From Fictibacillus terranigra (GTDB lineage: Bacteria > Bacillota > Bacilli > Bacillales > Fictibacillaceae): a stretch of 64,000 nt of DNA. Shown here piece after piece: positions 1 to 18,990 of this stretch. Below the pieces are notes generated by a model. That model worked only from the letters and a program-made list of their open reading frames with translations. It searched no databases and had not been told where the DNA came from. The translations under genes and the position numbers were made by a program. Location: NCBI RefSeq assembly GCF_030412265.1, contig NZ_JAUHLN010000002.1:1240001-1304000 (forward strand), read 5' to 3'. Each line of letters starts with the position of its first letter. Position 1 is the first letter of the stretch.

Positions 1-739
1 CGACATTCCTTCGCTGCTCCGCTAAATCAGGATGTTCGAATGGATTGTATCCGCTCGGCCGCTGGGGCAATCCGGCAAGCAATGCGGCCTCTCCGATCGT
101 CAGTTGGTCGAGTGACTTATCGAAATACGTTTTGGCTGCTGTTTTAACTCCGTAGGCACTGTTCCCGAAATAGATTTTATTCAAATAGAATTCCAGAATC
201 TGATCTTTCGAATATTTGCGTTCAAGCTGTACAGCCAAATAGGCTTCCTGTATCTTTCTTGTCACTGTCTTTTCTGGAGATAAGAAAGAGTTCTTTACGA
301 CCTGCTGTGTAATGGTACTTGCACCTTCAGAACCAAATCCGTGAGTAATATTGGAAAGGACGGCGCCCGCGACCCTTTTCGTATCAATTCCATTATGTTT
401 GTAAAAACGAACATCCTCTGTCGCAATAAAAGCATTCCGAACACGGGGCGGGATATCCTTGATGGAAACATAATCCCTCTTTTCCTTCCCACTGATCGTA
501 ACGACCTTTTCATTGTTCATGTCATAGACGGTAGACGTCCGCGAATACTTTAGATTTTCCGGGTTCAAATCAGGCGCGCCCTTTGCAACTGAAAATACAG
601 TGGCGCCTCCACCAATAACCACTACAAGAAAGAGAACTAGAAAAGTTAGTGTACTGTATGTAAGGAATTTCCGAAAACGTTTTGGCCTTTTGTTTTGTTT
701 TCTTCTTTCCAATCGTGAAGCAGAATTTTTCTTTTCCAT
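1..739 (-). CDS. Class A penicillin-binding protein (PBP1A family), N-terminal part
   Basis: This gene runs off the left edge of the window, so only its first ~246 codons are visible. The protein would polymerise and cross-link peptidoglycan outside the membrane. It starts with a basic cytoplasmic tail (MEKKNSASRLERRKQ) and one transmembrane anchor around residues 25-48. The GT51 glycosyltransferase domain follows, with the catalytic-Glu motif ATEDVRFYKHNG and the motifs GASTITQQ, RKIQEAYLA and LERKYSKDQILEFYLN. The transpeptidase domain lies outside the window. The ATG has an AGGAG-like site upstream. Which paralogue (ponA-, pbpD- or pbpF-like) it is cannot be decided from this part. Confidence 0.93.
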   Translation of the reverse strand, partial: MEKKNSASRLERRKQNKRPKRFRKFLTYSTLTFLVLFLVVVIGGGATVFSVAKGAPDLNPENLKYSRTSTVYDMNNEKVVTISGKEKRDYVSIKDIPPRVRNAFIATEDVRFYKHNGIDTKRVAGAVLSNITHGFGSEGASTITQQVVKNSFLSPEKTVTRKIQEAYLAVQLERKYSKDQILEFYLNKIYFGNSAYGVKTAAKTYFDKSLDQLTIGEAALLAGLPQRPSGYNPFEHPDLAEQRRNV

Positions 740-924
740 CATTAACTCTCCTTAAATTGTTCCAAGCTGTTCCCTATGCTGAAATAGATTATTTTTCCTA
801 AACACCAATTTTATACTATTTTAATAGAAAATAATACGTAAATAACTCAGAAATGTTACATTTTTATTACAAACAGTACTGAAGTACTAGTTACCCTTTT
901 TTTCCACTTTTTAATCTATATGAA

Positions 925-1352
925 TCAAAAAAAGAACAAGAACTGGATGTCTTGTCTCAAAAACTTCGTCTGGCGGTATGCAGGTTCAGACTCGTTTGTT
1001 ATCACTGAATCCTCAGGATAATAAAAGGATACGTTCTTATAGCTCCATGCATATTTGCTCTCGGAAAAGTATTTGCCAAGAGAGATGGACTTCATTTTTT
1101 GATGATCAATATAGATTTTTTTATTCCTTGGTTTCTCCGTATCGAACCCATAAGCCAGCAAATCATTGGCAAAATGCATACTGCCTTTATTGATGCTCTC
1201 ATAAAACCGATTTACATCCGTTAAAGCTGTTTTATATTGGCCAACACGTCTTGTTTTATTAAAAACTTAAATGATAGCCGTAATTCACCATATAAATAGA
1301 GTCCGGCTGCGAGAAAGATTAATAGAATGGCAGCGCCCCATCTCTTCTTCAT
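925..1352 (-). pseudogene. Small membrane-anchored protein broken by a frameshift
   Basis: An ORF begins at 1352 with MKKRWGAAILLIFLAAG, a basic start plus one hydrophobic segment. It stops after 43 codons, near 1220. The adjacent frame then stays open without a good start and encodes an extracellular-looking stretch (TDVNRFYESINKGSMHFAND ... SKYAWSYKNVSFYYPEDS) down to the stop at 925. The two parts join naturally if one indel is assumed near 1215-1225. I do not recognise the family. It could be a real frameshift or an assembly error. Confidence 0.55.
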
Positions 1353-1384
1353 CCACGATCCCCATTTCCTAAGAGCTAAGATGG

Positions 1385-1564
1385 CTATTTTAAGCGGTGA
1401 TCCTGCTTGATGATTTGATCTAACTTTTGTTCAATCTGAAGAAGTCTATCTCTCTTTTTCTTTTCGCTTTTTACAAAGGTGAAAACAATTATTAAAAACA
1501 ATATTAATGGAATGAACATAATTACCGCACTTCCATATCCAATCATGTTAAGCATCAAATGCAT
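1385..1564 (-). CDS. DUF4083-like small membrane protein
   Basis: A 59-residue protein with an N-terminal hydrophobic segment (about residues 5-30, MIGYGSAVIMFIPLILFLII). A charged tail with a short amphipathic helix follows (KKKRDRLLQIEQKLDQIIK). This layout, with a closing KLDQII-type motif, is typical of the DUF4083 family of Bacillus membrane peptides of unknown role. An upstream in-frame ATG exists at 1585. The chosen start has GGAGG six bases upstream, while the longer start overlaps that ribosome site. The gene sits between two decayed genes. Confidence 0.7.
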   Translation of the reverse strand: MHLMLNMIGYGSAVIMFIPLILFLIIVFTFVKSEKKKRDRLLQIEQKLDQIIKQDHRLK

Positions 1565-1619
1565 CAACCACCTCCAACCTTCCAATTACTTACAGTTCAC
1601 CATCATAATTGTTCCTTTC

Positions 1620-2064
1620 TCAATTCCCAATTAAGCATTTCTCCCTCTTGCCCATGTTCAGCTTCTTCAACACGCGGAGGGAAGGCTCATTGCCCTTCAG
1701 ACATTCAGCAATGACACGGTTCACTCGATCCGAAGAAAAGGCCCGATCAACGATCGCTTTTACCGCCTCATTCGCGTACCCCTTCTGCTGAGCAGAAGGA
1801 AGGATTCCATAGCCAACCTCAACTGTGTGATTCTCATCCGGCTTGCCTTAGACCCGATATCATCGATAATTTTGCCCGTTTCTTTCTCAGCAACAAGCCA
1901 AACGCCCCAACCGTACAGCTCGGGATCTTGTTCACTGAGCAACTAGATCCGATTTGATTTCTGATTGGATAGGCATCAGGCGACAGTGATTCTATATATG
2001 TATTTCGCAAACACCTTGCCGCCGATTAAAGGTGAACCGGCCAGCAATATCTCGAGTTTGGCTC
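1620..2064 (-). pseudogene. GNAT acetyltransferase remnant with several frameshifts
   Basis: No single frame gives the protein, but the pieces line up in the order of a GNAT N-acetyltransferase of the RimJ type. The pieces are KLEILLAGSPLIGGKVFAKY, then ESLSPDAYPIRNQIGS, then LYGWGVWLVAEKETGKIIDD, then HTVEVGYGILPSAQQKGYAN followed by EAVKAIVDRAFSSDRVNRVI and a C-terminal ECLKGNEPSLRVLKKLNM. At least three frame changes are needed, so it is inactive. It lies directly downstream of the terminator of the neighbouring symporter gene. Confidence 0.8.
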
Positions 2065-2072
2065 AATTCCAT

Positions 2073-2101
2073 CAAAAAAGCTGCCGAGTCACTCGACAGC
2101 C
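2073..2101 (-). terminator. Rho-independent terminator of the first ProP-type gene
   Basis: On the minus strand GCTGTCGA/TCGGCAGC forms an 8-bp stem (one G-T pair) followed by TTTTTTG. It lies 20-50 bases after the stop at 2120. Confidence 0.85.
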
Positions 2102-2119
2102 TTCTTCAAAAATCCAGTC

Positions 2120-3574
2120 TTACGTGTGCTTGCTCTCTACAGTCAATGCCTGATCATCTTCAGGCTCTTCTTTTTCCCACCATAAAGCTTCTTCCGGGTC
2201 TTTTAATACTTCTTTAATTTCACTAGGATCCTCAACAGCAGGGAGAGAGCCTCTCAGCGACCGGCCGGCGGTTTCTTTGACAAAGAAGACCACAACCACG
2301 ATCCCAATCATACAGACTGCCATTAAGTAATAGGCCGGAATCATATTGTTACTGGTTTCCTTCACCAGCCACGCGACAATAAGCGGGGTAGTGCCGCCAA
2401 AAATGGATGTGGAAAGATTATAGGTTAGGGCCAGTGAACCATATCTTACATTCGTAAAAAACAAAGACGGAAGGGTTGCAGGAAGCGTTCCTTGGAAAGC
2501 CGTGAGCAAACACCCAAGAATCAGTACGCCAAAGAAGGCATTATAACCGTTTTCATTCCCTGCCAGCATAAACGCTGGAACACTTAAAACGATGGTCAGG
2601 ATCAAGGCCCCTATGAGAATTTTATTTCGGCCGATTCGGTCTCCTAAATATCCCATGCCCAAAACAAATGGAATCATGATCACCATCACGATCAATATAA
2701 GAAGCAGGCCTTTTGTTTCTCCATAACCTAGCTGTTCGGACAGATAGGACGGCATGTACGTCAGGACCATGTAGACAATCGTATTGTAAAAGAGCACGAC
2801 CCCGACGCAGATTAATAATGATCTCCAATGATTAACGATAATTTCTTTAAATGATGATCGGTTTTTCTTTTCCTCTTTCTTCTCCTCCATGGCCTGAAAT
2901 GCCGGTGTTTCCTCAAGATGAGAACGAAAATACAAACCGATAAGGCCAAGTGGCGCAGCAATAAAAAATGGAATTCTCCATCCCCAATCCAGCATGGTTT
3001 CTGATCCAAGAATAAAGGTCAGCAGAGTGACGAGGCCAGATCCTGCAATATAGCCGGCCAAGGTGCCTACTTCGAGCACACTGGACATTACACTGCGTTT
3101 CTTATCAGGCGTAGATTCTGCAATGAAAGTCATTGCGCCTGCATATTCTCCTCCGGTTGAGAACCCTTGTACCAGCCTTGCAGCGAGCAGAAGGATAGGT
3201 GCGGCAATTCCAATGGTAGAATAGCCCGGAATGAGCCCGATGGCCAGTGTGGCAATTGCCATCATGATTAAAGTAAGAGCCAGGACCTTCTTTCGGCCTA
3301 GACGATCACCCATAATGCCAAAAAATATGCCGCCGAGCGGCCTCGCAATAAAAGCCACCGCAAACGTCGCAAAAGCATAGATGACCTGAGCGGAAGAATC
3401 GACCTCCGGAAAAAAAACTTTGCCAATGGTAACTGCTAAATAAGAATAAATGCCAAAATCAAACCATTCCATCGCATTGCCTAGCGAGGTACCTAAAATC
3501 GACTGCTTTGCGATTTGTTTATCAACGACAGTGATATCCTCTCTTTTCAATCTTTTACTTTTTTTTTCACCCAC
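2120..3574 (-). CDS. ProP-type MFS symporter (metabolite:H+ symporter family), copy 1
   Basis: A 484-residue, 12-helix major facilitator of the MHS family, the family of ProP proline/betaine and KgtP oxoglutarate symporters. Diagnostic stretches are LGNAMEWFDFGIYSY in helix 1, FFGIMGDRLGRKK in loop 2-3, QGFSTGGEYAGAMTFIAE in helix 4-5 and GWRIPFFIAAPLGLIGLY in helix 6. It lacks the long C-terminal coiled coil of E. coli ProP. The start is GTG with AGGAGG seven bases upstream. It is a tandem paralogue of the next upstream gene and closes a probable ectoine catabolic cluster, so uptake of ectoine or hydroxyectoine is a reasonable inference. Substrate is not shown by sequence. Confidence 0.88.
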   Translation of the reverse strand: MGEKKSKRLKREDITVVDKQIAKQSILGTSLGNAMEWFDFGIYSYLAVTIGKVFFPEVDSSAQVIYAFATFAVAFIARPLGGIFFGIMGDRLGRKKVLALTLIMMAIATLAIGLIPGYSTIGIAAPILLLAARLVQGFSTGGEYAGAMTFIAESTPDKKRSVMSSVLEVGTLAGYIAGSGLVTLLTFILGSETMLDWGWRIPFFIAAPLGLIGLYFRSHLEETPAFQAMEEKKEEKKNRSSFKEIIVNHWRSLLICVGVVLFYNTIVYMVLTYMPSYLSEQLGYGETKGLLLILIVMVIMIPFVLGMGYLGDRIGRNKILIGALILTIVLSVPAFMLAGNENGYNAFFGVLILGCLLTAFQGTLPATLPSLFFTNVRYGSLALTYNLSTSIFGGTTPLIVAWLVKETSNNMIPAYYLMAVCMIGIVVVVFFVKETAGRSLRGSLPAVEDPSEIKEVLKDPEEALWWEKEEPEDDQALTVESKHT

Positions 3575-3676
3575 AGCGTGCCTCCTAAATATAAAATGAT
3601 TAATAGTTTCTCCACTAAACCTTTTCCCTAATTGCTGACACGCTAATCATGACTGGACAAATAGAATAAAATCCAT

Positions 3677-3706
3677 AAAAAAGCTGCCGGGTTTCCCCGA
3701 CAGCTT
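3677..3706 (-). terminator. Terminator between the two tandem symporter genes
   Basis: On the minus strand AAGCTGTCGGGG-AAA-CCCGGCAGCTT forms a long stem followed by TTTTTT. It closely resembles the terminator after the downstream copy, consistent with tandem duplication of gene plus terminator. Confidence 0.85.
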
Positions 3707-3711
3707 CTGTT

Positions 3712-5193
3712 TTATTGAATATTGCTTACATTTTTCTGCTGAGATCCCAAAATGCTTGGGTCAAGTTTTGCTGTTGCTTTTTCTTGTTTCTTCCTTAATT
3801 CTTCCTTCCACCAAAATGCTTCTGCGGAATTTGCCAACCGTTCGTCCACTTCACTTTCATGTTCAACTGCAGGATTGGATCCCCTTAATGAACGGCCCGC
3901 TGTTTCTTTTACGAAAAGGGCAACGATCACTAGTCCAATGACACATACTCCAATTAAATAATAAGCAGGCAGCATGTTGAAACCCGTGGCTTTAACGAGC
4001 CATGCGACAACCAGCGGTGTTGTTCCTCCAAAGATGGAGGTGGATACATTGTATGTGATCGCCAATGAACCATAACGCACCTCTGTAAAAAACAAGGATG
4101 GCAAAGCAGCAGGCAGGGTCCCTTGAAAAGCCGTGAACAAACAGCTCAGGACCAGCAGACCAAAAAACGCGAATATGCTTGAACCCGTTCCCATCATAAA
4201 AAATGCAGGGATACTAAGAACGATGATGCCGATCAGCGCTGTGATTATCAGCCGGTTTCGTCCGATGCGGTCACCCCAATATCCCATCAGCAATACAAAG
4301 GGAATCATGGCGATCATTACGAAAAGGATAAGGACCAATCCCTTTGTTTCCCCAAAACCGAGCTGCTCTGACAAATAGGACGGCATGTAAGTAAGGATCA
4401 TATAGTTGATGGTGTTATAGAAAAATACGACACCAATACAGATAAGAAGAGAACGCCAATGCTCAGTAAAAATATTTTTTACGGATTTCTGCTTCTTGGT
4501 CTCCTTCATTTCCTGAAACGCAGGTGTTTCTTCTAAATGCGACCGGAAGTATAACCCAATCAGTCCTAATGGAGCAGCGATAAAGAAAGGAATCCTCCAG
4601 CCCCATGCAAGCATGGTTTCAGATCCAAGCAGAAAAGTAAGCAATGTCACTAAACCGGATCCAGCTATAAAACCAACGAGCGTTCCAACTTCCAGGAAAC
4701 TCGACATGAAAGTTCGCTTTTTGTCCGGAGTGGATTCAGCAATAAAGGTCATGGCGCCCGCATATTCTCCCCCCGTTGAAAAACCTTGTACCATTCGGGC
4801 AAGAAGCAATAAGACAGGAGCTGCAGCACCGATTGTAGCATAACCCGGGATAAGGCCTATGCTTAATGTGGCGACCGCCATCATGATCAGGGTGATGGCG
4901 AGGACCTTCTTCCGTCCGATACGGTCTCCCATCATTCCGAAGAACATACCGCCGATCGGCCTTGCAATAAAAGCTACTGCAAATGTTGCAAAAGCATAGA
5001 TTAACTGGGCAGAAGGATCGATCTCAGGGAAAAACACTTTACCAATCGTTACTGCTAAATAAGAATAGATGCCAAAATCAAACCATTCCATCGCATTGCC
5101 GAGAGATGTTCCAAGTATTGATTTTTTCGCAATTTTGGTATCAACAATCGTGATATCCTCTTTGGTCAGCTGTTCGTTTTGTCCTCTTTCCAT
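3712..5193 (-). CDS. ProP-type MFS symporter (metabolite:H+ symporter family), copy 2
   Basis: A 493-residue paralogue of the downstream symporter, nearly identical through the first six helices (LGNAMEWFDFGIYSY, GDRIGRKKVLA, GFSTGGEYAGAMTFI, SHLEETPAFQ). It diverges more in the last helices and the acidic/basic tail. An in-frame TTG at 5208 overlaps the AGGAGGT site, so the ATG at 5193, five to six bases after that site, is the better start. The gene begins 56 bases after the aldehyde dehydrogenase stop and probably belongs to the same transcript. Family membership is firm; uptake of ectoine-type osmolytes or their breakdown products is inferred from context. Confidence 0.88.
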   Translation of the reverse strand: MERGQNEQLTKEDITIVDTKIAKKSILGTSLGNAMEWFDFGIYSYLAVTIGKVFFPEIDPSAQLIYAFATFAVAFIARPIGGMFFGMMGDRIGRKKVLAITLIMMAVATLSIGLIPGYATIGAAAPVLLLLARMVQGFSTGGEYAGAMTFIAESTPDKKRTFMSSFLEVGTLVGFIAGSGLVTLLTFLLGSETMLAWGWRIPFFIAAPLGLIGLYFRSHLEETPAFQEMKETKKQKSVKNIFTEHWRSLLICIGVVFFYNTINYMILTYMPSYLSEQLGFGETKGLVLILFVMIAMIPFVLLMGYWGDRIGRNRLIITALIGIIVLSIPAFFMMGTGSSIFAFFGLLVLSCLFTAFQGTLPAALPSLFFTEVRYGSLAITYNVSTSIFGGTTPLVVAWLVKATGFNMLPAYYLIGVCVIGLVIVALFVKETAGRSLRGSNPAVEHESEVDERLANSAEAFWWKEELRKKQEKATAKLDPSILGSQQKNVSNIQ

Positions 5194-5249
5194 ATCGTAC
5201 CTCCTCAAATTACAGTTATCTTGCTCTCTCCTTATCCCTCTTTCTTTTT

Positions 5250-6695
5250 TTAGTTTGACAGTTTATAGCAGACCACTTTAGGCTCGGTCATGTCTTGAAT
5301 CGCGAATTTAATGCCTTCTCGCCCCAAGCCTGACTTTTTCACTCCTCCAAACGGCATGGCGTCGATCCGGTAATCGCTGCTGTCATTGATCATGATGCCT
5401 CCAACTTCCATCCTGGCGATCGCTTTTTGTGCTTTATCGATGTTTTTTGTAAAAATGCCTGCCTGCAGCCCGTAGCTGACTTCATTTGATTTTTCGATGG
5501 CCTCGTCTACATCCGTCACTTCATAAAGCATCACTACAGGACCAAAAATTTCTTCCTTAGCCACCGTGCTTTCGTCGGGAATGTTCTTTAACACCGTCGG
5601 ATAGTAGAACGCACCGTCCCGTCTCCCTCCAGTCAGCAGCTCAGCACCTTTTTCAACCGCTTCATGGACCAGCTTCTCTACACGCAACGCCTCCTTTTCC
5701 GAAATCAAAGGGCCGATATCGGTATCCTCAGATAGCTTATCGCCTACACGATATTGGTTGGTACGTGCCACGAAGGCCGACTCAAATTTCCGCATCACAC
5801 TCTGCTGTACGTATATTCTTTGGACGCTCAGGCAGTTTTGCCCGGCTGCCCAATATGCTCCGGAAACGGTTGATTCAACCGCCGCTTCAAGGTCGGCATC
5901 CTCCAGAACGATCACAGGAGAATTAGAGCCAAGCTCCATGCTGATTTTTTTCAAGCCAGCTTTTCTCACAATCTCTTCTCCTGCCTCCACTCCTCCTGTA
6001 AAGGAAATCATTCGGACAGCAGGATGGGTGACCAGCACATCGCCAATTTCATTTCCATGTCCCGTGATAACGGACAAGACTTTTGGAGGCAGCCCCCCAT
6101 GGGCAAAAGCTTCAGCGAGTAGCAGCGCACTTAGCGGAGTGACAGTAGCCGGCTTAACGATGATGGCGTTTCCTGAGGCAATGGCCGGGCCTACTTTATG
6201 GGCGACCAGGTTCAGCGGATCATTAAATGGAGTGATCGCTCCAATGATGCCAATGGGAAAACGCTGATAGTAGCCGACCCGGTTGTCGTTCCCTTCCATC
6301 TGGTCGAACGGAATGGTCTCCCCGTGTATCCTTCTTGCCTCTTCTGCACTGATCCGAAGGGTCTGAATGCATCTTGCGGTTTCCTTTGCTGCCTCACGTA
6401 TCGTTTTGCTGCCCTCCCTTGCAATCGTCAACGCGTACTTTTCCTTATGGTTTTCAATGTAGTCTGCCGCTTTATGAATGACGTCCATCCGCTCATATAC
6501 CGGCATGGCAGCCGCAATCTTGGCCCCTTCCCTGGCCTGTTCAATACAAGCCAGCATGTCTTCTTTGGAGGCCGCCGGGACCGTGTCTATGAAGCTGTTA
6601 TCCTGAGGATCTCTTACCACAATCGTTCTTTCACGGTGCACCCATCTTCCGGCTAGATACATTTTTTGGCCAGCAACCTGAGTCGTCATCAACAT
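5250..6695 (-). CDS. NAD(P)-dependent aldehyde dehydrogenase in the ectoine-type cluster
   Basis: A 481-residue ALDH-superfamily enzyme oxidising an aldehyde to an acid. The Rossmann cofactor region shows TPFNDPLNLVAHKVGPAI and FTGGVEAGEEI. The general base Glu lies in SMELGSNSP and the catalytic Cys in WAAGQNCLSVQRI. PTVLKNIP and EEIFGPVV are further family motifs. It most resembles the lactaldehyde/phosphonoacetaldehyde dehydrogenase branch. It starts 16 bases after the homoserine-dehydrogenase-like gene. In ectoine degradation DoeC is an ALDH that turns aspartate semialdehyde into aspartate, and this gene is a candidate for that step. ATGs at 6695 and 6689 are both possible starts. Confidence 0.9.
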   Translation of the reverse strand: MLMTTQVAGQKMYLAGRWVHRERTIVVRDPQDNSFIDTVPAASKEDMLACIEQAREGAKIAAAMPVYERMDVIHKAADYIENHKEKYALTIAREGSKTIREAAKETARCIQTLRISAEEARRIHGETIPFDQMEGNDNRVGYYQRFPIGIIGAITPFNDPLNLVAHKVGPAIASGNAIIVKPATVTPLSALLLAEAFAHGGLPPKVLSVITGHGNEIGDVLVTHPAVRMISFTGGVEAGEEIVRKAGLKKISMELGSNSPVIVLEDADLEAAVESTVSGAYWAAGQNCLSVQRIYVQQSVMRKFESAFVARTNQYRVGDKLSEDTDIGPLISEKEALRVEKLVHEAVEKGAELLTGGRRDGAFYYPTVLKNIPDESTVAKEEIFGPVVMLYEVTDVDEAIEKSNEVSYGLQAGIFTKNIDKAQKAIARMEVGGIMINDSSDYRIDAMPFGGVKKSGLGREGIKFAIQDMTEPKVVCYKLSN

Positions 6696-6711
6696 CCCCG
6701 CCTTTCTCAGT

Positions 6712-7767
6712 TTAAATGTTTACAAGTCTTCTTTCGCGATCAATGTTAATTAAATCGATTAACAAGGAAAAGCCTGTCTCCACCTTGCCCGCCCCTGCTC
6801 CGCTCAGCGTAACCGTTCCTAAAAGGTCACATTCGTAAGCAATGGCGTTCACAGCTCCGCTGATGGAAGCAAGCGGATCAGACATATCCACTTTTTCTGG
6901 GGCGATGGAAGCATCAACCTTCCCGTTTTCTTTACGGGCTTTTGCCAGCAGTTTCCATCTTTTCCCTTCGGCTTTTGCCTCCTCTATATCCTTCGGGGTA
7001 AGATTTGTGATACCGCGGCATGAAACTTCCTCTACCCGAAGAGGTTCATTCATCACATAGTTCGCGAGAATCGTAATCTTGTACCGAGCATCATAGCCTT
7101 CAACATCGCTGGTGGGATCAGCTTCTGCATACCCCAGCAGTTGTGCTTCTTTCAAGGCTTCATCATACGTAGCTCCCTCTTCTTCCATCTTGGTTAAGAT
7201 AAAATTGGTCGTACCGTTTAAAATGGCGCGTATTTCCGTGATCTCGTTTCCTGCCAAAGCGGAAGCGGGCATCCTTAATGAAGGCGTTCCGCTCATGACG
7301 GTCCCTTCAAATCCCCAGTACACGCCTTCCTTTTTTGCCAGCTCAGAAAGCTCTTTATACGCAAGGGCAACCGGGCCCTTATTGGTCATGACCACATTTT
7401 TTTTCGCCAGGAATGCCGTTCGGCAATGATCGATCGCAGGCTGTCCTGTCCGGACATCGGTATATGAAACCTCAATAACCGTATCCGCGTTGCTTTCACG
7501 TATCGTTTTCAGGCTGTCCCAACCGGTTACGAGGCCAGGGGACGGCGGATAGTTTTCCAGATTTCCCGTCTCCTGCAGCACTTGTAAAACCGTATCGATG
7601 TCCAGTCCGTTCGGATGATAGATTGCACCTTTATTAAAATCTGAGATGGCCACAATTTCCGCTTCAAAATGCTCGTTGGCCTTTAAATCTTCATGCTTGT
7701 CCCTCAGAATTTCAGCCAATCCCTGTCCGACTGTTCCAAATCCAATAAAAGCAAGTTTATGTCCCAT
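6712..7767 (-). CDS. Homoserine dehydrogenase-like enzyme without ACT domain
   Basis: A 351-residue oxidoreductase with an N-terminal Rossmann fold ([16 protein letters not shown]). The homoserine dehydrogenase catalytic region follows ([46 protein letters not shown]). Biosynthetic Hom proteins of Bacillus are about 430 residues with a C-terminal ACT regulatory domain. That domain is missing here, as expected for a catabolic, non-feedback-regulated form. Its start overlaps the M20 gene by 11 bases, with GGAGGT inside the M20 3' end, so translation is probably coupled. Interconversion of aspartate semialdehyde and homoserine during osmolyte breakdown is inferred. Confidence 0.88.
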
Positions 7768-9004
7768 AGGTCTCTACCTCCACCTTTTCACGGCTTGGCA
7801 GGAATACCTCGCCTTTTAAATACTTTAATGCTGTCTGTGCCAGGATCGCTGTCCCGATCGGCAAGCAGTTTTCATTTATATCAAAAAACGGAGTGTGCAA
7901 TTCTCTCTGATCTTGTCCTTGCTCGGAACATCCCAGAAAGAACATGGCACCAGGAACTTTTTGTGTTACATATCCAAAATCTTCTCCGCCCATTCCAAAC
8001 GGGCCTCTTTTAATCGTAATTTCGGGATACAGCTCTCTTGCCGCCTCCATAAACCACTTGTTGATCATTTTATGATTGTTCAGCGCAGGTTCGCCCCGGT
8101 CCACTTTGAACGAGTAATCCCCGCCTAGTGAATGAACAATGGAAAACGCCTTTTCCAATTCTGAGGCGAGCAAGCCGCGTACTTCAGGTGTATAGCTGCG
8201 AATCGTTCCTGTTATGGATACCTCGGTAGGAATGATATTGCTTGCCGAACCCGCATGGATCTCCCCAATGCTGATCACGGCTGAATCCATTGCAGAGACT
8301 TTCCGTGCCACAATGCCATGAAGGGCCTGCATGACCGGGCCCAGCATCCAAATAGGATCGGTTCCCTGCTCAGGATAAGCACCGTGCCCCCCTGTTCCAT
8401 AAATTTTTCCCTGGAACACATCAACATTGGCCATGCTGTACCCATCGTTCACTTGAATGGCGCCAGCCGGAAGCCACGGGCACATATGGAGCGCAATGGC
8501 GGCATCTGCTTCATCATAAACTCCTGCCTGAACCATATAAGGAGAACCTGACAGACCTTGTTCATCAATGCTTTCTTCTGCCGGCTGAAACATAAATTTT
8601 ACCTTGCCCTGTATTTCTTCCCGTTTAAATGCATCTGCCAGAAGGCTGGCAACCCCAAGCAGGATGGCAGTATGAGCATCATGTCCGCAGGCATGCATCA
8701 CACCATCGTTCCGTGATTTGTAACTCAATTCGTTTTTCTCATGAATGGGCAAGGCATCCATGTCTGCGCGGATGGCGATGACCGGTCCTTCCCCCGAGGA
8801 AAGGGTTCCAACAACTCCAGTGGGAACCCCCACTCCGATCTCCGTTTTCATTCCGGGAATCCGTCTTAATGTTTCCGCCACCAGGCTTGACGTTTCAAAT
8901 TCCTGAAAACTGAGTTCAGGGTTTTGATGGATCTGCCGCCTCCATGCGATCAAATTTTCATTCAACTCTTTAACCGAAGCAGCAACAAACTGATGATTTG
9001 CCAT
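7757..9004 (-). CDS. M20-family amidohydrolase (probable N-acyl amino acid deacylase)
   Basis: A 415-residue zinc-dependent amidohydrolase of the IAA-amino-acid hydrolase/N-acetyldiaminopimelate deacetylase group. Visible metal and catalytic motifs are [33 protein letters not shown] and GGEDFGYV, plus a late His in [11 protein letters not shown]. The dimerisation lid domain is in the middle ([15 protein letters not shown]). There is no signal peptide. In known ectoine pathways N-acetyl-2,4-diaminobutyrate is deacetylated by DoeB, an M14-like enzyme. No DoeB is present here, so this M20 enzyme is the natural candidate for that step (inference). GAGGAG precedes the ATG. Confidence 0.9.
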
Positions 9005-9039
9005 TTGTCATTCATCTCCTCAAACACACTGGCTATCTC

Positions 9040-10239
9040 TTAGACCTTTAAAACACTTTCCACATGTTGAAAAGCCTGTTCAAAGTCCGCAATAATATCT
9101 TCGATGTCTTCTATGCCGCAGGAGATGCGGATCAATCCTTCAGGAATTCCCATCGCCGCCCGTTCTTCCGGTGTACATTCCACGTGGCTTGTGGTACGTG
9201 CAGGCCCGACCGTTGTTTCCACAGCGCCGAGATTGGCCGCACGGTTCGCAAATTGCAATTTTGGAAGCAGGTCCCTGACCGTTTCGACGCCTCCTTTTAC
9301 CGCAAAGCTGAGCATTCCGCCAAATCCCTTCATCTGCTTTTTCGCAATTTCATGGTTTGGATGGGTCTCAAGCCCTGGATAGTAGACTCCTTCTACTAAT
9401 TCTTGTGTTTGCAGGAACTTAGCAAGCGCCATTGCATTTTCGCTTTGCTGACGTACACGCAGGTGAAGGGTCTTCATACCCCTCAAGAGGAGGTACGCCG
9501 CCATCGGATCCATCGTAGCTCCGTTTATTTCACGGAAATGGTAGATTTTTTCCACCAATTCTTCCGGCCCGCAGACTACTCCTCCAAGCGCATCCGCATG
9601 TCCTCCCAGGAATTTGGTCGCACTATGGATGACTAAATCTGCTCCGAGAGCGAGCGGATTCTGGTTGATTGGTGTTCCGAACGTATTGTCTACCACCACT
9701 AACGCACCAGCTTCACGGCCAGCTTTCGCCATCCTCTCAATGTCTGTAATTTTAACCGTTGGATTGGTTGGTGTTTCCAAATAGAGAATGCTGCAGCCTT
9801 TTGCTACTTCTTTTTCAATCTGTTCATGGTTGCCGGTTTCACATAACACAACCTCGACCTGCTGGCGGGGGAGGAACTCGGTAAATATTTTGTTTGTTCC
9901 GCCATAGGTATCTTTGATGGAGACGATTCGGTCACCAGGCACTAAAAAAGTAGAAAGTGTATTGCTGATCGCAGCCATTCCTGTTGAAAAACTCGTAGCC
10001 GCTTCGGCTCCTTCGAGAATTTTTACTTTATCTTCAAAAGCCTGGACCGTCGGATTTGTGTTTCGTCCGTAAATATGCCCTTTTTTCTTGCCGATCGCAA
10101 CATCATACCATTCATCCATATCGTCGTAGCCATACGCCACACTAAGAACGACCGGCACCTGAGTCGCCCCGTGCACCAAATACTCTTTTTCTCCTGCCCA
10201 TACAGACTTCGTTCCTGCTTTTATGTTGTGGTTTGCCAT
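9040..10239 (-). CDS. Cys/Met-metabolism PLP enzyme (cystathionine gamma-synthase/gamma-lyase family)
   Basis: A 399-residue fold-type I PLP enzyme. The phosphate-binding and substrate motifs are HIYGRNTNPTVQAFE and SFSTGMAAISNTL. PLP stacking residues are in KDTYGGTNKIF, the cofactor Asp is in VVVDNTFGTP, and the Schiff-base Lys is in IHSATKFLGGHADALGG. GLIRISCGIEDIEDIIADF closes the domain. Family members catalyse gamma- or beta-elimination or replacement on C4 amino acids. In this cluster it could remove the gamma-substituent of 2,4-diaminobutyrate or homoserine to give 2-oxobutyrate and ammonia. That is an inference. It starts 14 bases after eutC with GAGGAG upstream. Confidence 0.9.
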   Translation of the reverse strand: MANHNIKAGTKSVWAGEKEYLVHGATQVPVVLSVAYGYDDMDEWYDVAIGKKKGHIYGRNTNPTVQAFEDKVKILEGAEAATSFSTGMAAISNTLSTFLVPGDRIVSIKDTYGGTNKIFTEFLPRQQVEVVLCETGNHEQIEKEVAKGCSILYLETPTNPTVKITDIERMAKAGREAGALVVVDNTFGTPINQNPLALGADLVIHSATKFLGGHADALGGVVCGPEELVEKIYHFREINGATMDPMAAYLLLRGMKTLHLRVRQQSENAMALAKFLQTQELVEGVYYPGLETHPNHEIAKKQMKGFGGMLSFAVKGGVETVRDLLPKLQFANRAANLGAVETTVGPARTTSHVECTPEERAAMGIPEGLIRISCGIEDIEDIIADFEQAFQHVESVLKV

Positions 10240-10253
10240 GTGATCACTCCTCG

Positions 10254-11258
10254 TTAATTTTTAAAGGCTGGTACTTTGTCTTCTATTTTCAAACCAAGTC
10301 CTCGTTGCACCATTTCTTGAAAAGCGAACAAGGCGATGGCGGTATCCTGTACTCCTGTTCCGGTTAAATCACAAACCGTAATCTGTTCCTCATGCTGCCT
10401 GCCCTCTGCCTTTTTTGAAGTAAGCTCGCCGAGTTCAACGATGGGGTGTTTACGGGATAACAGTCCTTGATCAAATGCATGATGAAGTTCGCCTAACCGC
10501 TCACATTGGGCGATGGTGTCGCAAACAAGCCTGCCAGCCTGTGCCAATACTTCAGCTTCGAGTTCCTGCTTGTGCTCCGCGTCCGATCCCATCGCTGTAA
10601 TATGAATTCCGGGATGGAGCCATTCCGCTTTGATCACCGGGTCCTTGGCCGGCGTTGTCGTAATGACGGTATCGCTGTTGCGTACGACTGCCTCTGCGCT
10701 ATCGACCACTTTAACCTCAATCCCAAGCTCAGCTGACATTTCCTCTGCGTACACCTTGGCCCTTTCCTCTGACCGTCCAAAAATGAGCACCTCTTGAAAA
10801 TCCCTTACGAGCCGCAGGGCTTTTGCCTGGTATCTCGCCTGGCTTCCTGTGCCGATCACGCCCACGGTTTGTATTTTCTTTCTTGATAAATATTTGGCAG
10901 CAATGGCCCCCGCGGCAGCTGTACGAATGTCGGTAAGATAACCGTTATCCAGCAGGATTGCCTGCGGTACGCCTGTTTTTGCACTGATGAGCATCATCAA
11001 TCCGCTTCCGCTCGGAAGGCCGATCTTGTAATTGTTAAAAAATCCAGAGGACACTTTAATCGCAAACATGCCTTTCCCTTCGACATAGGCGGTTTTCACG
11101 TCCACTTCTCCGTTCTGGTCGTGAACATCGACCCTCATGATGGGAGGCATGGTTACTCTATGCTCTGCAAGATTCGTAAAACCATCCTCGACCACGGATA
11201 GAGCTTCAAGATTTAGTGAAACGTGCTGCCTCAATTCATGTTCTGTAAAAATAAACAT
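10254..11258 (-). CDS. eutC: Ornithine cyclodeaminase/mu-crystallin family protein, EutC-like
   Basis: A 334-residue NAD(P)-binding protein of the ornithine cyclodeaminase/mu-crystallin family. The dinucleotide motif is VGVIGTGSQARYQAKALRLV, with substrate-side motifs VDVKTAYVEGKGMFAIKVSS and TDIRTAAAGAIAAKYLS. EutC works with EutB to convert hydroxyectoine to ectoine in organisms that eat both compounds. That role is assigned here because doeA lies 18 bases upstream and an EutB-like dehydratase gene lies 3.6 kb upstream. An alanine dehydrogenase or cyclodeaminase role cannot be excluded from sequence alone. Confidence 0.8.
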   Translation of the reverse strand: MFIFTEHELRQHVSLNLEALSVVEDGFTNLAEHRVTMPPIMRVDVHDQNGEVDVKTAYVEGKGMFAIKVSSGFFNNYKIGLPSGSGLMMLISAKTGVPQAILLDNGYLTDIRTAAAGAIAAKYLSRKKIQTVGVIGTGSQARYQAKALRLVRDFQEVLIFGRSEERAKVYAEEMSAELGIEVKVVDSAEAVVRNSDTVITTTPAKDPVIKAEWLHPGIHITAMGSDAEHKQELEAEVLAQAGRLVCDTIAQCERLGELHHAFDQGLLSRKHPIVELGELTSKKAEGRQHEEQITVCDLTGTGVQDTAIALFAFQEMVQRGLGLKIEDKVPAFKN

Positions 11259-11276
11259 CCTGTTCTTTCACTCCCT

Positions 11277-12464
11277 TCATGTTCGTTCCAATACACCGTC
11301 CCTGATAACCAGCTGTCTTGGCAGTGAAGCAAAGGTCTCGCAGCCGTTATCTGTCACCCGGAAAGATTCGCTGGCTTCAAATCCGTATTGGTCCAGCCAG
11401 ATTCCGGGGATCAGGTGGAAGGTCATATTCGGCTGCAGAATGGTTCTGTCTCCCTTTCGGATGCTCGCCGTGTGCTCTCCCCAGTCTGGAGGATAATTTA
11501 GTCCCATCGCATAGCCGAGACGAGATTCTTTAACGATGCCGCTTTTATGTATCGTCTTTCTCCACGTCTCTTCAATTTCTTCACAGGCAATTCCCGGCTT
11601 GATCATGTCCAGGCATGCGTTCAGTCCTTCAACAACAACATCGGATAGAGCTTTGAGCCCGTCGGATGGCGGCCCGATATTTACTGTTCTCGCCAGCGGC
11701 GAATGATACCGTCTGTAGCAGCCTGCCAGTTCCAAAATGACGGAGTCTCCTTTTTTATACCTGTCATCCGTCCAGGTTAAGTGTGGAGTAGACGTTTTTT
11801 CTCCTGAAGGCAGAAGGGGCACAATGGCCGGATAGTCACCACCGAAGTTTTCGGTCCCTTTGATCTGGGTATGAAAGATCTCGGCGGCCACATCGCATTC
11901 CCTGACGCCTTCACCGATGAGCCCGATTCCTTTCATCATGGCTTTTTCCACAATTTCAGCCGCGCGTTTCATATACGTAATTTCGGCATCTGATTTTACG
12001 AGGCGAACCCAGTTCACTAATAAAGTAGCATCCTTAAATGAAGCATTGGGCAGACCCTTCTTTAGCTGTTCATAACATTTTGCCGTAAAATAATAATTGT
12101 CCATCTCCACACCGATTGAACGCTTGTCCTGCCCGATCTGCTTTAGGATATCGGCAACAAAATCCATCGGATGCAGCGTGGCCGATTGGACGTAATCATC
12201 CGGATAAGGGATCAGGTTCTCATGGTATAGCCATGACGTCGCTTTTGCTCCATTGGCATCCTGGCCGCGGCCGATCCAGATCGGCTGATCTTCGTCATTA
12301 ATGACGATCAGCATCTGATGGACATAGAACGACCATCCATCATATCCGGACAAATAGTTCATATTGGCCGGGTCAGTAATCAGGAGGACTTCTATCCCTT
12401 TCTCTGCCATGCTTTTTTTCGTTTTATAAATTCTTTCCTGATATTCGGTTGTCCCAAATGACAT
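11277..12464 (-). CDS. doeA: Ectoine hydrolase DoeA (M24 peptidase/creatinase fold)
   Basis: A 395-residue protein with the creatinase N-terminal domain (DPANMNYLSGYDGWSFYVHQ) and a pita-bread C-terminal domain. Where metallopeptidases have metal-binding Asp residues, this protein reads LELAGCYRRYHSPLARTV, so it is a non-metal member, like DoeA and creatinase. The HPMDFVADILKQIG and GLNYPPDWGEHTASIRKGD stretches also fit DoeA. DoeA opens the ectoine ring to N-acetyl-2,4-diaminobutyrate. An ORF extends upstream to 12596, but the ATG at 12464 has AGGAGGGAAGG directly before it, so it is chosen. It is the first gene of the catabolic operon. Confidence 0.85.
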   Translation of the reverse strand: MSFGTTEYQERIYKTKKSMAEKGIEVLLITDPANMNYLSGYDGWSFYVHQMLIVINDEDQPIWIGRGQDANGAKATSWLYHENLIPYPDDYVQSATLHPMDFVADILKQIGQDKRSIGVEMDNYYFTAKCYEQLKKGLPNASFKDATLLVNWVRLVKSDAEITYMKRAAEIVEKAMMKGIGLIGEGVRECDVAAEIFHTQIKGTENFGGDYPAIVPLLPSGEKTSTPHLTWTDDRYKKGDSVILELAGCYRRYHSPLARTVNIGPPSDGLKALSDVVVEGLNACLDMIKPGIACEEIEETWRKTIHKSGIVKESRLGYAMGLNYPPDWGEHTASIRKGDRTILQPNMTFHLIPGIWLDQYGFEASESFRVTDNGCETFASLPRQLVIRDGVLERT

Positions 12465-12617
12465 AGGACCTTCCCTCCTGTATTCAATTATTATTAGAAT
12501 TTTATGAATAATCAATTTATAAATCCAGTATAGAATATCAGTCATCGTTTCATCATCTGCAAAACTGTATGAAGTTTTTGTAAAAGTTTTAGTCAAATTA
12601 TCAGAATAGCTGGCACA

Positions 12618-12653
12618 ATAAAAAAAGGGCTGTCGAAATTAGACGAGCCCTTA
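12618..12653 (-). terminator. Hairpin terminator, minus strand
   Basis: AAGGGCT and AGCCCTT arms separated by 14 bases, followed on the minus strand by a run of T. It may belong to a decayed minus-strand gene between pucR and doeA. Confidence 0.6.
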
Positions 12654-12956
12654 AGGAATGTTAAATGATCTTGGAAAGTAAATACGTCCAGTGTCCGGTG
12701 GATCTCTTTTTCTCCATGAACAGTGGACATGCTGTACGATTCATCGGTTTGGTATAAATCCCTTGGGTCAGCAAAGAGAAATCCGATTCTTTTCTCATGG
12801 GAAAATTCGATTGTTGAAAATCACGCGTTGAGTCTGATTAATAGCCTGATTGCCTACATTGGAAGGGAAAGGGTGGATGACGCGCAGGAACGTCTGAAAA
12901 AACTTGAGCATGTATGGGAAAGGTTCGAGGTCTTTCATAAAAAAATAATAAATAAC

Positions 12957-12995
12957 AAAAAACAAAGACCTTGTACAAGTCTTTGTTTTTTTATT
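12957..12995. terminator. Bidirectional terminator downstream of the PucR-type gene
   Basis: Arms AAACAAAGAC and GTCTTTGTTT flank a 9-base loop, with A and T runs on both sides. It lies just after the regulator stop at 13021. Confidence 0.8.
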
Positions 12996-13020
12996 GTTTG
13001 GCTGGACTGCCGTTTACTTT

Positions 13021-14712
13021 TCACAGGATTGAGCTGGCTTCCGGCAATCCCAGCTTCCATGTTTTAATGCTGAGATCCAATAAAAATAAATCATCCGTGT
13101 CGATCAAGGAAAGCCCAGTCAGAGTCTCTATTTTACGCAGCCTGTACAACAGGGATTGCCTGTGAAGATTTAGCAGGCGAGCGGTCTGGCTCACATTTCC
13201 GTGGCATTCATTGTAGGTGGTGAATGTACCGATAAGATCCATGGTGCGCTGCTGGTCATATTGAATAAGCGGCTCGATGGCTGATACGATGATCTCTTTC
13301 ATTTCTTTGTTCTGTGCGAGCGTCAACAATACCCGGTCAACCTTTGTGTTCTCATACAGTACCCGGTGTCCTGCTCCCTTCTTATTTCTTCCAATCTGCA
13401 GAGCTGTCTTTGCCTGGTCAAATCCTTTTTTAAACCCTGCAACCTCCTCCTGATGAGCACCAATTCCCCATGAAATAATGACATCAGGCAGCAGATTCCT
13501 GAGACGCCTCTCAACCAGATCCAAAAAGTGATGCGCCGGGTTCTCATGGCTTGTCATTTCTACAAAGAGGATCAGTTTTTCTCCTTGATAGGTCATCATG
13601 ACTTCTTTTTTAAGAGATTGGGCCGCATAATTAATTTCTTCCTCAATGTAACGGATCATGCTGTCAAGCCAGTGAGCATACGAATCATAGTGCTGTTTTC
13701 TTTTTTTAAACAGCAGTTCCAGGTTCTCAGGATAGCCCGCGATACATATATAAGAGAGCTTGAGATTAAATCCGAGCAATTTTGCTCTGGATTCTGCTTG
13801 CTCGCGCGATGAGAACTCTCCCTTTGCCAATTCCTGAACAAAATCACTGCGAAGACGCATCTCTGTTTCTTCTATGGCGTTTTGCCGAGACAGCCAAAGC
13901 GCGATCGTAGTAGCTGCATGTTCGAGCACGTTCACCCGGTACTGATTTAAAAAGTCCTCGATCAAATCATTCGGGGGCAGAACAAATAAATATCCTTGTA
14001 TATCTCCTGAAGCCTTTAGTATTGGCAATTGGACAATGGTCTGACCATCCCTTTCAACGAGATGGAACTTTTGATACATCGGATCCTGTGGCAGAACAGC
14101 GTGTTCAGTAGAGATGCAATCTTTAAGATCATAGAATTTCCATCTGTCATCAGGCTCGTACGTCTCAGACCTGTCCTGGACGACTCCAGCTCTGTCCGTA
14201 ATAACGAGAGGACAGCCAATATGTTTTTGAATAAAACCGGATATTTCATTAAGACTTGTTTCCTTTAAAATCAATTGAAGGAGTTCCTGCTGAACTCTTT
14301 CAGACTTTTCCCGGTCTTTATACTGCATGTCATTGAGTGCGTGAAGTACATCTTCAATGATTGTAGAAAAACGGATTTCCCATGGAATTTCAATAATGAT
14401 AAAATTATGCTTTTCCGCCATCTGTATCACTTCTTTGGGAACATCATATATGTACCGCCCCAAAGCAATAATAAGTGCTGAAGCTTTCGATTGAATGATA
14501 TCCTCAACGAATTTTTTGAATAACAATACATCATGGCCGCACCCAATGGCTGTGCTCAGGACCACTTCATTTTTGCGGACAAAATTTTCTACAGGCATCT
14601 CAATAACAGAAATCCATTGAACATAACGCTCATTCAGGATATGGCCGCCCATTCGTACCCGGGCATTTTTCATGATCTCAAAGTTTAGTATATCTCCTAC
14701 TGACAACCTCAT
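13021..14712 (-). CDS. PucR-family transcriptional regulator
   Basis: A 563-residue regulator. The N-terminal PucR ligand domain (about residues 1-125, SVGDILNFEIM, VVLSTAIGCGHD) is followed by a GAF/GGDEF-like central region. The C-terminal HTH_30 domain reads TYNECHGNVSQTARLLNLHR then QSLLYRLRKIETLTG. PucR-type proteins activate catabolic operons in response to a metabolite. Here it sits between eutB and the doeA operon, all on the same strand, and is the obvious candidate regulator of both. AGGAGGG lies five bases before the ATG. The inducer is unknown; N-acetyl-diaminobutyrate or diaminobutyrate would be the analogy with other ectoine regulators. Confidence 0.93.
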   Translation of the reverse strand: MRLSVGDILNFEIMKNARVRMGGHILNERYVQWISVIEMPVENFVRKNEVVLSTAIGCGHDVLLFKKFVEDIIQSKASALIIALGRYIYDVPKEVIQMAEKHNFIIIEIPWEIRFSTIIEDVLHALNDMQYKDREKSERVQQELLQLILKETSLNEISGFIQKHIGCPLVITDRAGVVQDRSETYEPDDRWKFYDLKDCISTEHAVLPQDPMYQKFHLVERDGQTIVQLPILKASGDIQGYLFVLPPNDLIEDFLNQYRVNVLEHAATTIALWLSRQNAIEETEMRLRSDFVQELAKGEFSSREQAESRAKLLGFNLKLSYICIAGYPENLELLFKKRKQHYDSYAHWLDSMIRYIEEEINYAAQSLKKEVMMTYQGEKLILFVEMTSHENPAHHFLDLVERRLRNLLPDVIISWGIGAHQEEVAGFKKGFDQAKTALQIGRNKKGAGHRVLYENTKVDRVLLTLAQNKEMKEIIVSAIEPLIQYDQQRTMDLIGTFTTYNECHGNVSQTARLLNLHRQSLLYRLRKIETLTGLSLIDTDDLFLLDLSIKTWKLGLPEASSIL

Positions 14713-14855
14713 ATGAACCCTCCTGACCGCAAGATATTTCTGATTAAATTATACATATTGTTAAATATAGCACACCATCATATTGGAGGTTTTTCCTATA
14801 TTTTTTATCACAAAACGAAATCATCCTCTATATCTTGCGGAAAAGTGGAGAATTT

Positions 14856-15860
14856 TCAAGATGGTGAGTAGGAAGTAAGTACGTGCTGTATGACAGAAAG
14901 ATCAACATTATGGCCTGTGATAATGACAGCAATGGCTCCTTCCTGATCTTCTATTTTATTTCCTAATAATGCCGCGATCCCAGTACCGGCCGCTCCCTCC
15001 ATGATCATTCGATGATGATCCATCATAAAGGCCATGCTGTATGCGATCTCTTCTTCAGGAATTAATAAAACCTGGTCCATATACCTTTTCACCATTTCAA
15101 ATGTATATTGATTGTCCAGCCCTATACCTCCAAGCAAGCTGTCTGCAAGAGTATCCTTTTCTGGTAAACTTATGGGTTTTCCGGCTCTAAGGCTTTCGTA
15201 CATTACAGCGGATTCTTCCATGGAGACCCCCGTTACCCGAATGCTCCTGTCATTTGACTTTAGAGCCATACCGATGCCGGATAGCAGCCCCCCTCCGGAA
15301 AGCGGCACGATCACATCTGATAAGGATGGTATATCCTCCAGCAATTCCAAACCGATGGTACCCTGTCCAGCGATAATATACGGATCATCGAATGGCTCAA
15401 TCACGGTCAGCCCCTGCTCTTTTACTAATGCAAAGCATCTTTCGCCGGCCTCATCCTGGCTTTCTCCACAAAACTCAATGGCCGCCCCCAATCTCTTGAG
15501 CGAATCGACTTTTGCTTTCGGCACCCGGTTGGATATACAGACAGTAGCCTCAATGCCCAGCTTTTTCGCTACAAAGGCTACAGCCATTCCATGATTTCCA
15601 GTAGAATACGTTGTAATCCCTCTCTTTTTTTCTTCTTCACTTAAACTTAAAATTTTGTTCGCTGCCCCCCGGACTTTAAATGCTCCAGTATCATGAACGG
15701 TCTCCAGTTTAAGATAAACCGGCCGTCCTGTTCTTTCAGAAAGAACAAAGGATTCGACTGCAGGTGTTTTTTTAATAAGGGAACCGATTCTTTTTCTAGC
15801 TTCCAATATGTCTCGTATCGTTACTTCAGCTTGCCGGCTTGACGTTAAATTGTTATTCAT
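14856..15860 (-). CDS. eutB: Threonine dehydratase-like PLP enzyme, EutB-like
   Basis: A 334-residue fold-type II PLP enzyme of the serine/threonine dehydratase family. The Schiff-base Lys lies in DTGAFKVRGAANKI, a Ser/Asn loop in YSTGNHGMAVAFVAKKLG, and the PLP-phosphate Gly-rich loop in VPLSGGGLLSGIGMAL. It lacks the C-terminal ACT regulatory domain of biosynthetic IlvA. In ectoine utilisers EutB is a dehydratase-like enzyme acting with EutC to strip the hydroxyl of hydroxyectoine. Proximity to PucR, EutC and DoeA supports that role over ordinary threonine deamination. An upstream in-frame ATG at 15884 lacks a site, whereas GGAGGAGGG precedes the ATG at 15860. Confidence 0.82.
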   Translation of the reverse strand: MNNNLTSSRQAEVTIRDILEARKRIGSLIKKTPAVESFVLSERTGRPVYLKLETVHDTGAFKVRGAANKILSLSEEEKKRGITTYSTGNHGMAVAFVAKKLGIEATVCISNRVPKAKVDSLKRLGAAIEFCGESQDEAGERCFALVKEQGLTVIEPFDDPYIIAGQGTIGLELLEDIPSLSDVIVPLSGGGLLSGIGMALKSNDRSIRVTGVSMEESAVMYESLRAGKPISLPEKDTLADSLLGGIGLDNQYTFEMVKRYMDQVLLIPEEEIAYSMAFMMDHHRMIMEGAAGTGIAALLGNKIEDQEGAIAVIITGHNVDLSVIQHVLTSYSPS

Positions 15861-15973
15861 ATTTGTACCCTCCTCCGGTGTCAATCCTACTTCGCATTAT
15901 ATAGTAAGAATATTCTGTAATCTACTATTAAAAGTGACTAGTGAACGAATGCAGTTTTCATACAAAATGACAT

Positions 15974-16005
15974 TAAAAAAGCCGCCGGGTACTCCTCCGG
16001 CAGCT
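15974..16005 (-). terminator. Terminator of the pullulanase gene
   Basis: On the minus strand GCTGCCGG and CCGGCGGC form an 8-bp stem (one G-T pair) followed by TTTTTT, immediately after the pulA stop. Confidence 0.85.
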
Positions 16006-16011
16006 TATAGA

Positions 16012-18924: not shown

Positions 18925-18990
18925 TCCTTATCCTCCCTTAAATATAGAAAATGAGATTTCAACCATAACTTTACCATGATAAAGGAGCGA

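Follow-up and report, generated by a model that had tools for sequence, protein, structure and literature searches.

Known Ectoine Degradation Systems and the Fictibacillus Cluster

Ectoine is a widespread osmolyte that also serves as a nutrient, and most work on its degradation has concerned Proteobacteria. The canonical DoeABCD and EutDE-Ssd-Atf systems (H. elongata, R. pomeroyi) are the reference for the cluster described here, which comprises ten open reading frames (ORFs) at positions 2120–15884, all on the minus strand, of a 64,000-nt stretch of Fictibacillus terranigra (this whole stretch is called the window, and coordinates count from its first letter). These ORFs encode homologues of EutB, PucR, DoeA, and EutC, a pyridoxal phosphate (PLP) enzyme, an M20 amidohydrolase, a homoserine dehydrogenase (HSD), an aldehyde dehydrogenase (ALDH), and two ProP-type symporters. 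The cluster has in common with the canonical systems EutB/EutC, a putative DoeA, and proposed deacetylation and ALDH steps. However, it holds neither DoeB nor a class III aminotransferase, PucR replaces EnuR, and the PLP enzyme and the HSD would replace DoeD. As judged from its sequence, the island probably imports ectoine, as well as hydroxyectoine via EutB/EutC, and degrades it to aspartate by way of homoserine.

Clusters of this type have been in print since April 2026. Boas Lichty et al. (2026; PMC13188858) describe Bacillales clusters (pucR-eutBCD-atf / abgB-thrA-adh / eutD-msf) as putatively ectoine-degrading and propose no route for them; they regard the Gram-positive clusters as new and not yet validated, and report no eutE in these genomes. 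Their genes, gene order, regulator type, and major facilitator superfamily (MFS) transporter are those of the window. However, abgB, thrA, and adh are given in that text by enzyme type only, whereas here a route is proposed from the exchange of genes between clusters. By the gene order in the same text, 'atf' corresponds to the PLP enzyme of the window, which belongs to the PRK08249 type. The route, and the stand-in role of the PLP enzyme and HSD, appear to be new as far as searched. If the proposal is true, many Bacillales run a different mid-pathway chemistry, with an enzyme reaction absent from the literature listings searched, and the printed label 'atf', if meant for the PLP gene, would lead genome annotation and metabolic modelling astray.

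Proposed Route and Its Genomic Linkage

Based on gene content, conservation, co-occurrence, and the pattern of exchanges, all of them observed, the following reactions are inferred. DoeA would open ectoine to N-acetyl-2,4-diaminobutyrate, from which the M20 enzyme would cleave off acetate to give 2,4-diaminobutyrate. The PRK08249-type PLP enzyme (9040–10239) would then act on 2,4-diaminobutyrate, substituting water for its gamma-amino group and yielding homoserine and ammonia. The HSD (6712–7767), working in the oxidative direction, would convert homoserine into aspartate semialdehyde, and the ALDH (5250–6695), in the role of DoeC, would convert the latter into aspartate. The PLP enzyme and the HSD would in this way stand in for the 2-oxoglutarate-dependent diaminobutyrate aminotransferase (DoeD/Atf).

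The PLP enzyme and DoeA are tightly linked. Among 397 genomes of the order, searched at E ≤ 1e-180 for the PLP enzyme and E ≤ 1e-110 for DoeA, each gene was found in 119: both occur in 113, six hold only one, six only the other, and 272 neither (Fisher P 2.5e-83, uncorrected for kinship). The nearest pairs lie within 5,468 bases of each other in 113 of 113 genomes (median 2,177). When loci were fetched with the PLP enzyme as the query and their ORFs clustered, the best 80 of 585 relatives included DoeA in 75, PucR in 64, HSD in 64, ALDH in 61, M20 in 61, EutC in 31, and EutB in 25. The recurrence of the cluster in relatives, a search for which the original prediction had proposed, is thus more than chance.

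Evidence for Ectoine as the Substrate

DoeA (11277–12464) scores 517.7 bits in TIGR02993, below the cut-off of 613. Its mechanical ORF begins at 12596, and the start shared with homologues is the ATG at 12464 (395 aa). Its best solved relative is DoeA of H. elongata (6twk), aligned over residues 3–386 with an E value of 2.3e-117. The EutB homologue (14856–15884; most likely starting at the ATG at 15860), of the hydroxyectoine dehydratase family, exceeds the cut-off of NF005680 (431.4 vs. 413 bits), and EutC (10254–11258), of the ornithine cyclodeaminase family, that of NF006141 (491.7 vs. 408 bits), so that the hydroxyectoine module EutBC is represented in the cluster. Both are below the cut-offs of the corresponding TIGRFAM models (TIGR02991, 385.5 vs. 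413.35 bits; TIGR02992, 423.8 vs. 471.65 bits).

Transporter genes point in the same direction. Ehu-type genes, with a binding-protein family and adjoining permeases, occur in seven of the 80 loci; the EhuB cut-off is passed by six of six binding proteins tested out of the seven, and one EhuD and one EhuA representative also pass theirs. BCCT transporters are found in 13 of the 80. The ABC transporter genes of L055–L057, first taken for Ehu by BLAST, were dropped, since their permease and binding protein are only 28–32% alike and the L055 binding protein is GlnH-like. L142 has an ectB gene (674.4 vs. 552.2 bits) in the vicinity of the catabolic cluster, encoded on the opposite strand.

On a plasmid of Klebsiella pneumoniae, ehuA-D occupy one strand. 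The opposite strand holds a gene for a MocR-type regulator (with GntR and aminotransferase domains), doeA (758.4 vs. 613 bits), and doeB (539.7 vs. 402.7 bits), followed by a PRK08249-type enzyme that shares 59% identity with that of the window. In this gene order the PLP enzyme follows the canonical deacetylase within an ectoine operon, at the place where doeD/doeC would be expected.

It is scarcely probable that the cluster acts on another cyclic amide or acylated amino acid instead of ectoine. The sub-threshold score of DoeA and the 73 of 80 loci without Ehu genes would fit such a substrate, but the Ehu genes where present, EutB and EutC, ectB near the L142 cluster, and the DoeA/DoeB/Ehu operon of Klebsiella all argue for ectoine. 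The ectoine/hydroxyectoine catabolism originally predicted for the island is supported by this evidence together with the likeness of DoeA, and the cluster very probably enables growth on ectoine.

Exchange of the PLP Enzyme and Homoserine Dehydrogenase for an Aminotransferase

The roles of the PLP enzyme and HSD are best approached through the clusters that lack them. Six of the 119 genomes with DoeA hold no PLP enzyme, and these carry eight DoeA loci. They were pooled with L003–L080 and with 40 of the 113 two-gene genomes, hand-picked along the list, into 126 loci (L081 and L082 stand outside the pool); after dropping L032, L077, and L079, which have no DoeA, 123 remained. An HSD was nearby in 95 of the 115 loci with the PLP enzyme vs. 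one of the eight without it (P 8e-5), a comparison that ignores kinship and includes some species twice. Conversely, a strict screen with the swapped aminotransferases as queries (45% identity) found class III aminotransferases of this type in none of the 115 vs. four of the eight (P 8e-6, kinship again ignored). A laxer screen also matched, among the PLP-bearing loci, L004 (glutamate-semialdehyde-aminomutase-like), L055–L057 (an ornithine aminotransferase in L056), and L142, where the match was ectB. Among the PLP-bearing loci, 93 hold both HSD and ALDH, two HSD without ALDH, 20 neither, and none a full ALDH without HSD; one of the 20 (L160) retains a 52-residue ALDH remnant.

The four aminotransferase clusters, L099, L100, L105, and L106, have no HSD and all retain M20. 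L099 has the order eutB-pucR-doeA-eutC-M20-ALDH-aminotransferase and L105 the order MFS-pucR-doeA-M20-ALDH-aminotransferase, both without PLP enzyme. Their aminotransferases belong to class III and are nearest to PRK07480, below its cut-off (457.1 and 415.3 vs. 510 bits), while their M20 enzymes are 55–60% and their ALDHs, which are orthologous, 68–72% identical to those of the window. As M20 and ALDH are kept, the exchange concerns the PLP enzyme and the HSD. L100 and L106 hold GABA-aminotransferase-like and succinate-semialdehyde-dehydrogenase-like genes, both over cut-off, in addition to M20 and eutB. The two swapped aminotransferase types are about 32% identical. In the DoeA tree, L100/L106 group at weak support with loci that bear the PLP enzyme, and L099/L105 are not placed. 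Two separate exchanges are suggested, of which the DoeA tree is no proof.

The PLP enzyme and HSD are also missing from L101, which the DoeA tree places inside a clade with both genes. This locus retains M20, ALDH, and doeA. In its relatives, such as L066, the two missing genes stand apart from each other (order PLP-M20-HSD-ALDH-doeA). L102 and L104 show no PLP enzyme, HSD, or ALDH by this screen.

From these counts, the PLP enzyme and HSD together seem to do the aminotransferase's job. One reading fits the pattern of HSD, ALDH, and aminotransferase: the ALDH would receive aspartate semialdehyde either from an aminotransferase or from the HSD, the latter being fed homoserine by the PLP enzyme. 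The published label 'atf' would make the PLP enzyme itself a diaminobutyrate aminotransferase, which is very improbable. It does hold the aminotransferase's place in the cluster, but it is a member of the Cys/Met family (PF01053; NF006097, 767.9 vs. 600 bits) rather than of class III, and an HSD beside a true aminotransferase would drain aspartate semialdehyde, in keeping with its absence from all four class III clusters.

Proposed Reaction of the PLP Enzyme and Direction of the Homoserine Dehydrogenase

The catalytic residues of the PLP enzyme, Lys209, Tyr57, Arg59, Tyr112, and Arg371, are invariant among the 121 homologues that share at least 55% identity. The position of the methionine gamma-lyase cysteine (Cys116 in P. 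putida numbering) is Gly114 in 120 of the 121. The HSD is a short enzyme of the PRK06270 type (NF004912, 447.9 vs. 373 bits) in which no ACT domain was found by Pfam, and its position 43 is acidic (Asp) in 96 of 98 cluster HSDs. With an acidic residue where the second strand of the nucleotide fold ends, NAD is generally preferred to NADP, and with it the oxidative direction. The ALDH is recognized by PF00171 (530.5 bits), and is below cut-off in all 25 NCBIfam models shown out of 45 matched.

A related chemistry is known for the canavanine gamma-lyase (Hauth et al. 2022, as cited in PMC10018355), where PLP-dependent cleavage leads to homoserine. However, its leaving group is hydroxyguanidine, and the two enzymes are likened here by reaction and not by sequence. 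A plasmid locus of Rhizobium acidisoli (L086) resembles the window in holding a PRK06270-type HSD (473.9 bits), a similar ALDH, and a Cys/Met PLP enzyme, next to an aspartate ammonia-lyase. It differs in that this PLP enzyme reaches only 301.1 bits in NF006097 and in that no ectoine genes are among those annotated in the stretch. With regard to a possible canavanine operon, the annotation of that stretch includes no tRNA-editing protein, and a 1-kb unannotated gap contains a dapA-like ORF, as seen by eye.

Offshoots without DoeA tie the PLP enzyme to the dehydrogenases in another context. In three of the six genomes with PLP enzyme and no DoeA (L107, L110, L112), HSD and ALDH follow the PLP enzyme; an amino-acid permease comes next in L107 and L110, and an ORF of similar size in L112. 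L032 and L079, also without DoeA, show the order PLP-HSD-ALDH-permease.

A number of observations, on the other hand, weigh against the homoserine route. No HSD is nearby in the 20 PLP-bearing loci mentioned above, the other three PLP-only genomes (L108, L109, L111) have neither HSD nor ALDH beside the PLP enzyme, and no HSD stands beside the two second PLP-enzyme copies inspected. A search of the 19-kb Klebsiella stretch with the HSD, ALDH, and class III aminotransferase queries found none of the three. Where HSD is missing, homoserine might be used for making threonine, or the PLP enzyme might form 2-oxobutyrate instead. L103 presents the reverse case, with HSD and ALDH and without PLP enzyme and M20. 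The evidence from exchanges comes from four loci of one family and perhaps two events, and the P values overstate it because the loci share species and kinship. Literature searches, among the papers listed, gave no report of a diaminobutyrate-to-homoserine reaction or of an ectoine link for this enzyme type.

The loci without HSD also bear on the gamma-elimination to 2-oxobutyrate that the original prediction had offered. In this reading, the PLP enzyme would strip diaminobutyrate of both amino groups, forming 2-oxobutyrate and ammonia in the manner of methionine gamma-lyase acting on methionine, and the HSD and ALDH would serve another purpose. The best solved relatives of the PLP enzyme are indeed methionine gamma-lyases, with which it shares family and catalytic residues. 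However, it carries Gly for the Cys, is partnered by HSD and ALDH, and is below the methionine gamma-lyase cut-off (TIGR01328, 384.6 vs. 549.7 bits). Moreover, HSD and ALDH accompany it in most loci and in some of the DoeA-less offshoots, a full ALDH occurs with it only where HSD is present, and the aminotransferase clusters retain an ALDH without HSD. The 2-oxobutyrate route is therefore unlikely: HSD and ALDH are the usual companions of the PLP enzyme, and clusters in which a class III aminotransferase takes over are without HSD. The other route proposed, through homoserine and aspartate semialdehyde, is the one supported.

More broadly, PRK08249 is tentatively put forward as an unrecognised family of homoserine-forming gamma-hydrolases, which might convert diaminobutyrate into homoserine and ammonia in a transaminase-free route from ectoine to aspartate, and of which an offshoot might turn S-methylmethionine into homoserine and dimethyl sulfide. 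In the locus L113 (G403, contig C1:3846000–3865000), an additional PRK08249 gene, the second in its genome, adjoins an S-methylmethionine-permease-like gene (668.8 vs. 716 bits) and a homocysteine S-methyltransferase gene (457.9 vs. 215 bits). The clade of L113-type copies is nested among the DoeA-linked ones, and these copies are a possible S-methylmethionine-cleaving offshoot.

Deacetylation Step

The M20 amidohydrolase (7757–9004; TIGR01891, 385.3 vs. 153.75 bits) is the proposed N-acetyl-diaminobutyrate deacetylase. It is below the cut-off of NF038260, the M20-type DoeB2 family (238.2 vs. 550 bits), but may nevertheless function like DoeB2. Deacetylation is the least secure step of the homoserine route, because M20 is missing from some clusters and canonical DoeB is no stand-in. 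In 11 genomes with M20-less clusters, only M20 paralogues of 36–40% identity were found elsewhere, vs. 48–62% in three control genomes whose cluster includes M20, so that the step is unexplained in these genomes. Canonical DoeB is over cut-off in none of the 397 genomes of the order, by a model that matched no control genome but scores the Klebsiella DoeB well.

Such clusters lend some weight to a direct reaction, in which DoeA would yield N-gamma-acetyl-diaminobutyrate and the PLP enzyme would cleave it into acetamide and homoserine, leaving M20 off the main path. An HSD with no nearby M20 is found in 19 of the 115 PLP-bearing loci (18 with PLP enzyme, HSD, and ALDH, one with PLP enzyme and HSD only), and none of the 11 M20-less genomes tested has a close M20 relative elsewhere. 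In addition, DoeA of H. elongata is reported in PMC5924519 to produce both isomers. This alternative is nonetheless quite improbable, considering that in Klebsiella the PLP gene comes after a canonical doeB, that the four aminotransferase clusters, whose reaction requires a free gamma-amino group, all retain M20, and that deacylases of other types adjoin the PLP enzyme in L062, L077, and L082.

Remaining Genome of the Host

The F. terranigra genome has 4.97 Mb, and its PLP enzyme is 96% identical to those of Fictibacillus enclensis and F. solisalsi, the nearest named relatives by this enzyme. The original prediction had raised the possibility of DoeB or DoeD homologues elsewhere in this genome. 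A hidden canonical DoeB was rejected, given that the best AstE/AspA protein scores 77.9 vs. 402.7 bits and that no TIGR02994 match was found in the genome at E 1e-30. One diaminobutyrate aminotransferase is indeed present outside the cluster (584 bits, over cut-off), but its gene adjoins diaminobutyrate-decarboxylase-like and N-monooxygenase-like genes, a neighbourhood that suggests a siderophore cluster. Because of this context, a role as hidden DoeD is less likely. Two further HSDs, of 431 and 461 aa from the first Met, are encoded in the genome, both longer than that of the cluster, which for this reason is probably not the biosynthetic one. An ectoine synthase was not found in the genome, in a search that also matched nothing in control genomes.

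A second DoeA paralogue (L098, contig C16:1730–2911) reaches 412.1 bits and has PucR-like, ProP-like, and M20-like genes near it, as seen by eye. Its motifs deviate from those of the window DoeA (e.g., AHFSW for PHLTW), and it may therefore act on another compound.

Cluster Layout, Regulator, and Transporters

The PucR-family regulator (13021–14712) matches PF07905, PF13556, and PF17853 over cut-off. Of the two ProP-type symporters, the first (3712–5208, its ATG probably at 5193) is just below the cut-off of NF007927 (535.6 vs. 544 bits), and the second (2120–3574) is over it (551.6 bits). The intergenic gaps measure 18 bases between doeA and eutC, 14 between eutC and the PLP gene, 35 between the latter and M20, and 16 between HSD and ALDH, and M20 and HSD overlap by 11. 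The original prediction had described a one-strand island of DoeA, EutB, EutC, PucR, and two ProP-type symporters, with gaps of up to 35 bases and one 11-base overlap; family scores and ORF coordinates agree with this layout, and the recomputed spacings are identical. Likewise, family scores bear out the identities given to the M20 enzyme, the Cys/Met PLP enzyme, the ACT-less HSD, and the ALDH. None of the ten ORFs is a canonical DoeB or DoeD, as had been claimed, and the placing of M20 in the position of DoeB is supported. An Rfam scan of positions 1–20000 gave no matches, and promoter/terminator matches were no more frequent than in shuffled sequence.

Variant Loci

Other loci show further variation around the same genes. 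In L083, from Priestia megaterium ATCC 14581, the cluster is located on a 75-kb plasmid, with pdxS (PLP synthesis) between eutB and doeA. The DoeA tree places L008, whose record bears the name Pseudomonas sp. ISL-84, with Cytobacillus; this record is probably misnamed or contaminated. Two genes downstream of doeA, one of 454 aa in L101 (7839–9203) and one of 459 aa in L069 (16329–17708), have no NCBIfam match at the thresholds used; in Pfam, the former gives a weak DctM match (33.2 bits) and the latter none.

Elsewhere in the phylum, 16 DoeA loci (L115–L130) often contain two ORFs that match in size a tripartite ATP-independent periplasmic (TRAP) transporter pair, at about 426 and 180 aa. M20 genes of 34–38% identity are present in 12 of these 16 loci and HSD in none, and two of them, L117 and L128, hold more distant Cys/Met enzymes near DoeA.

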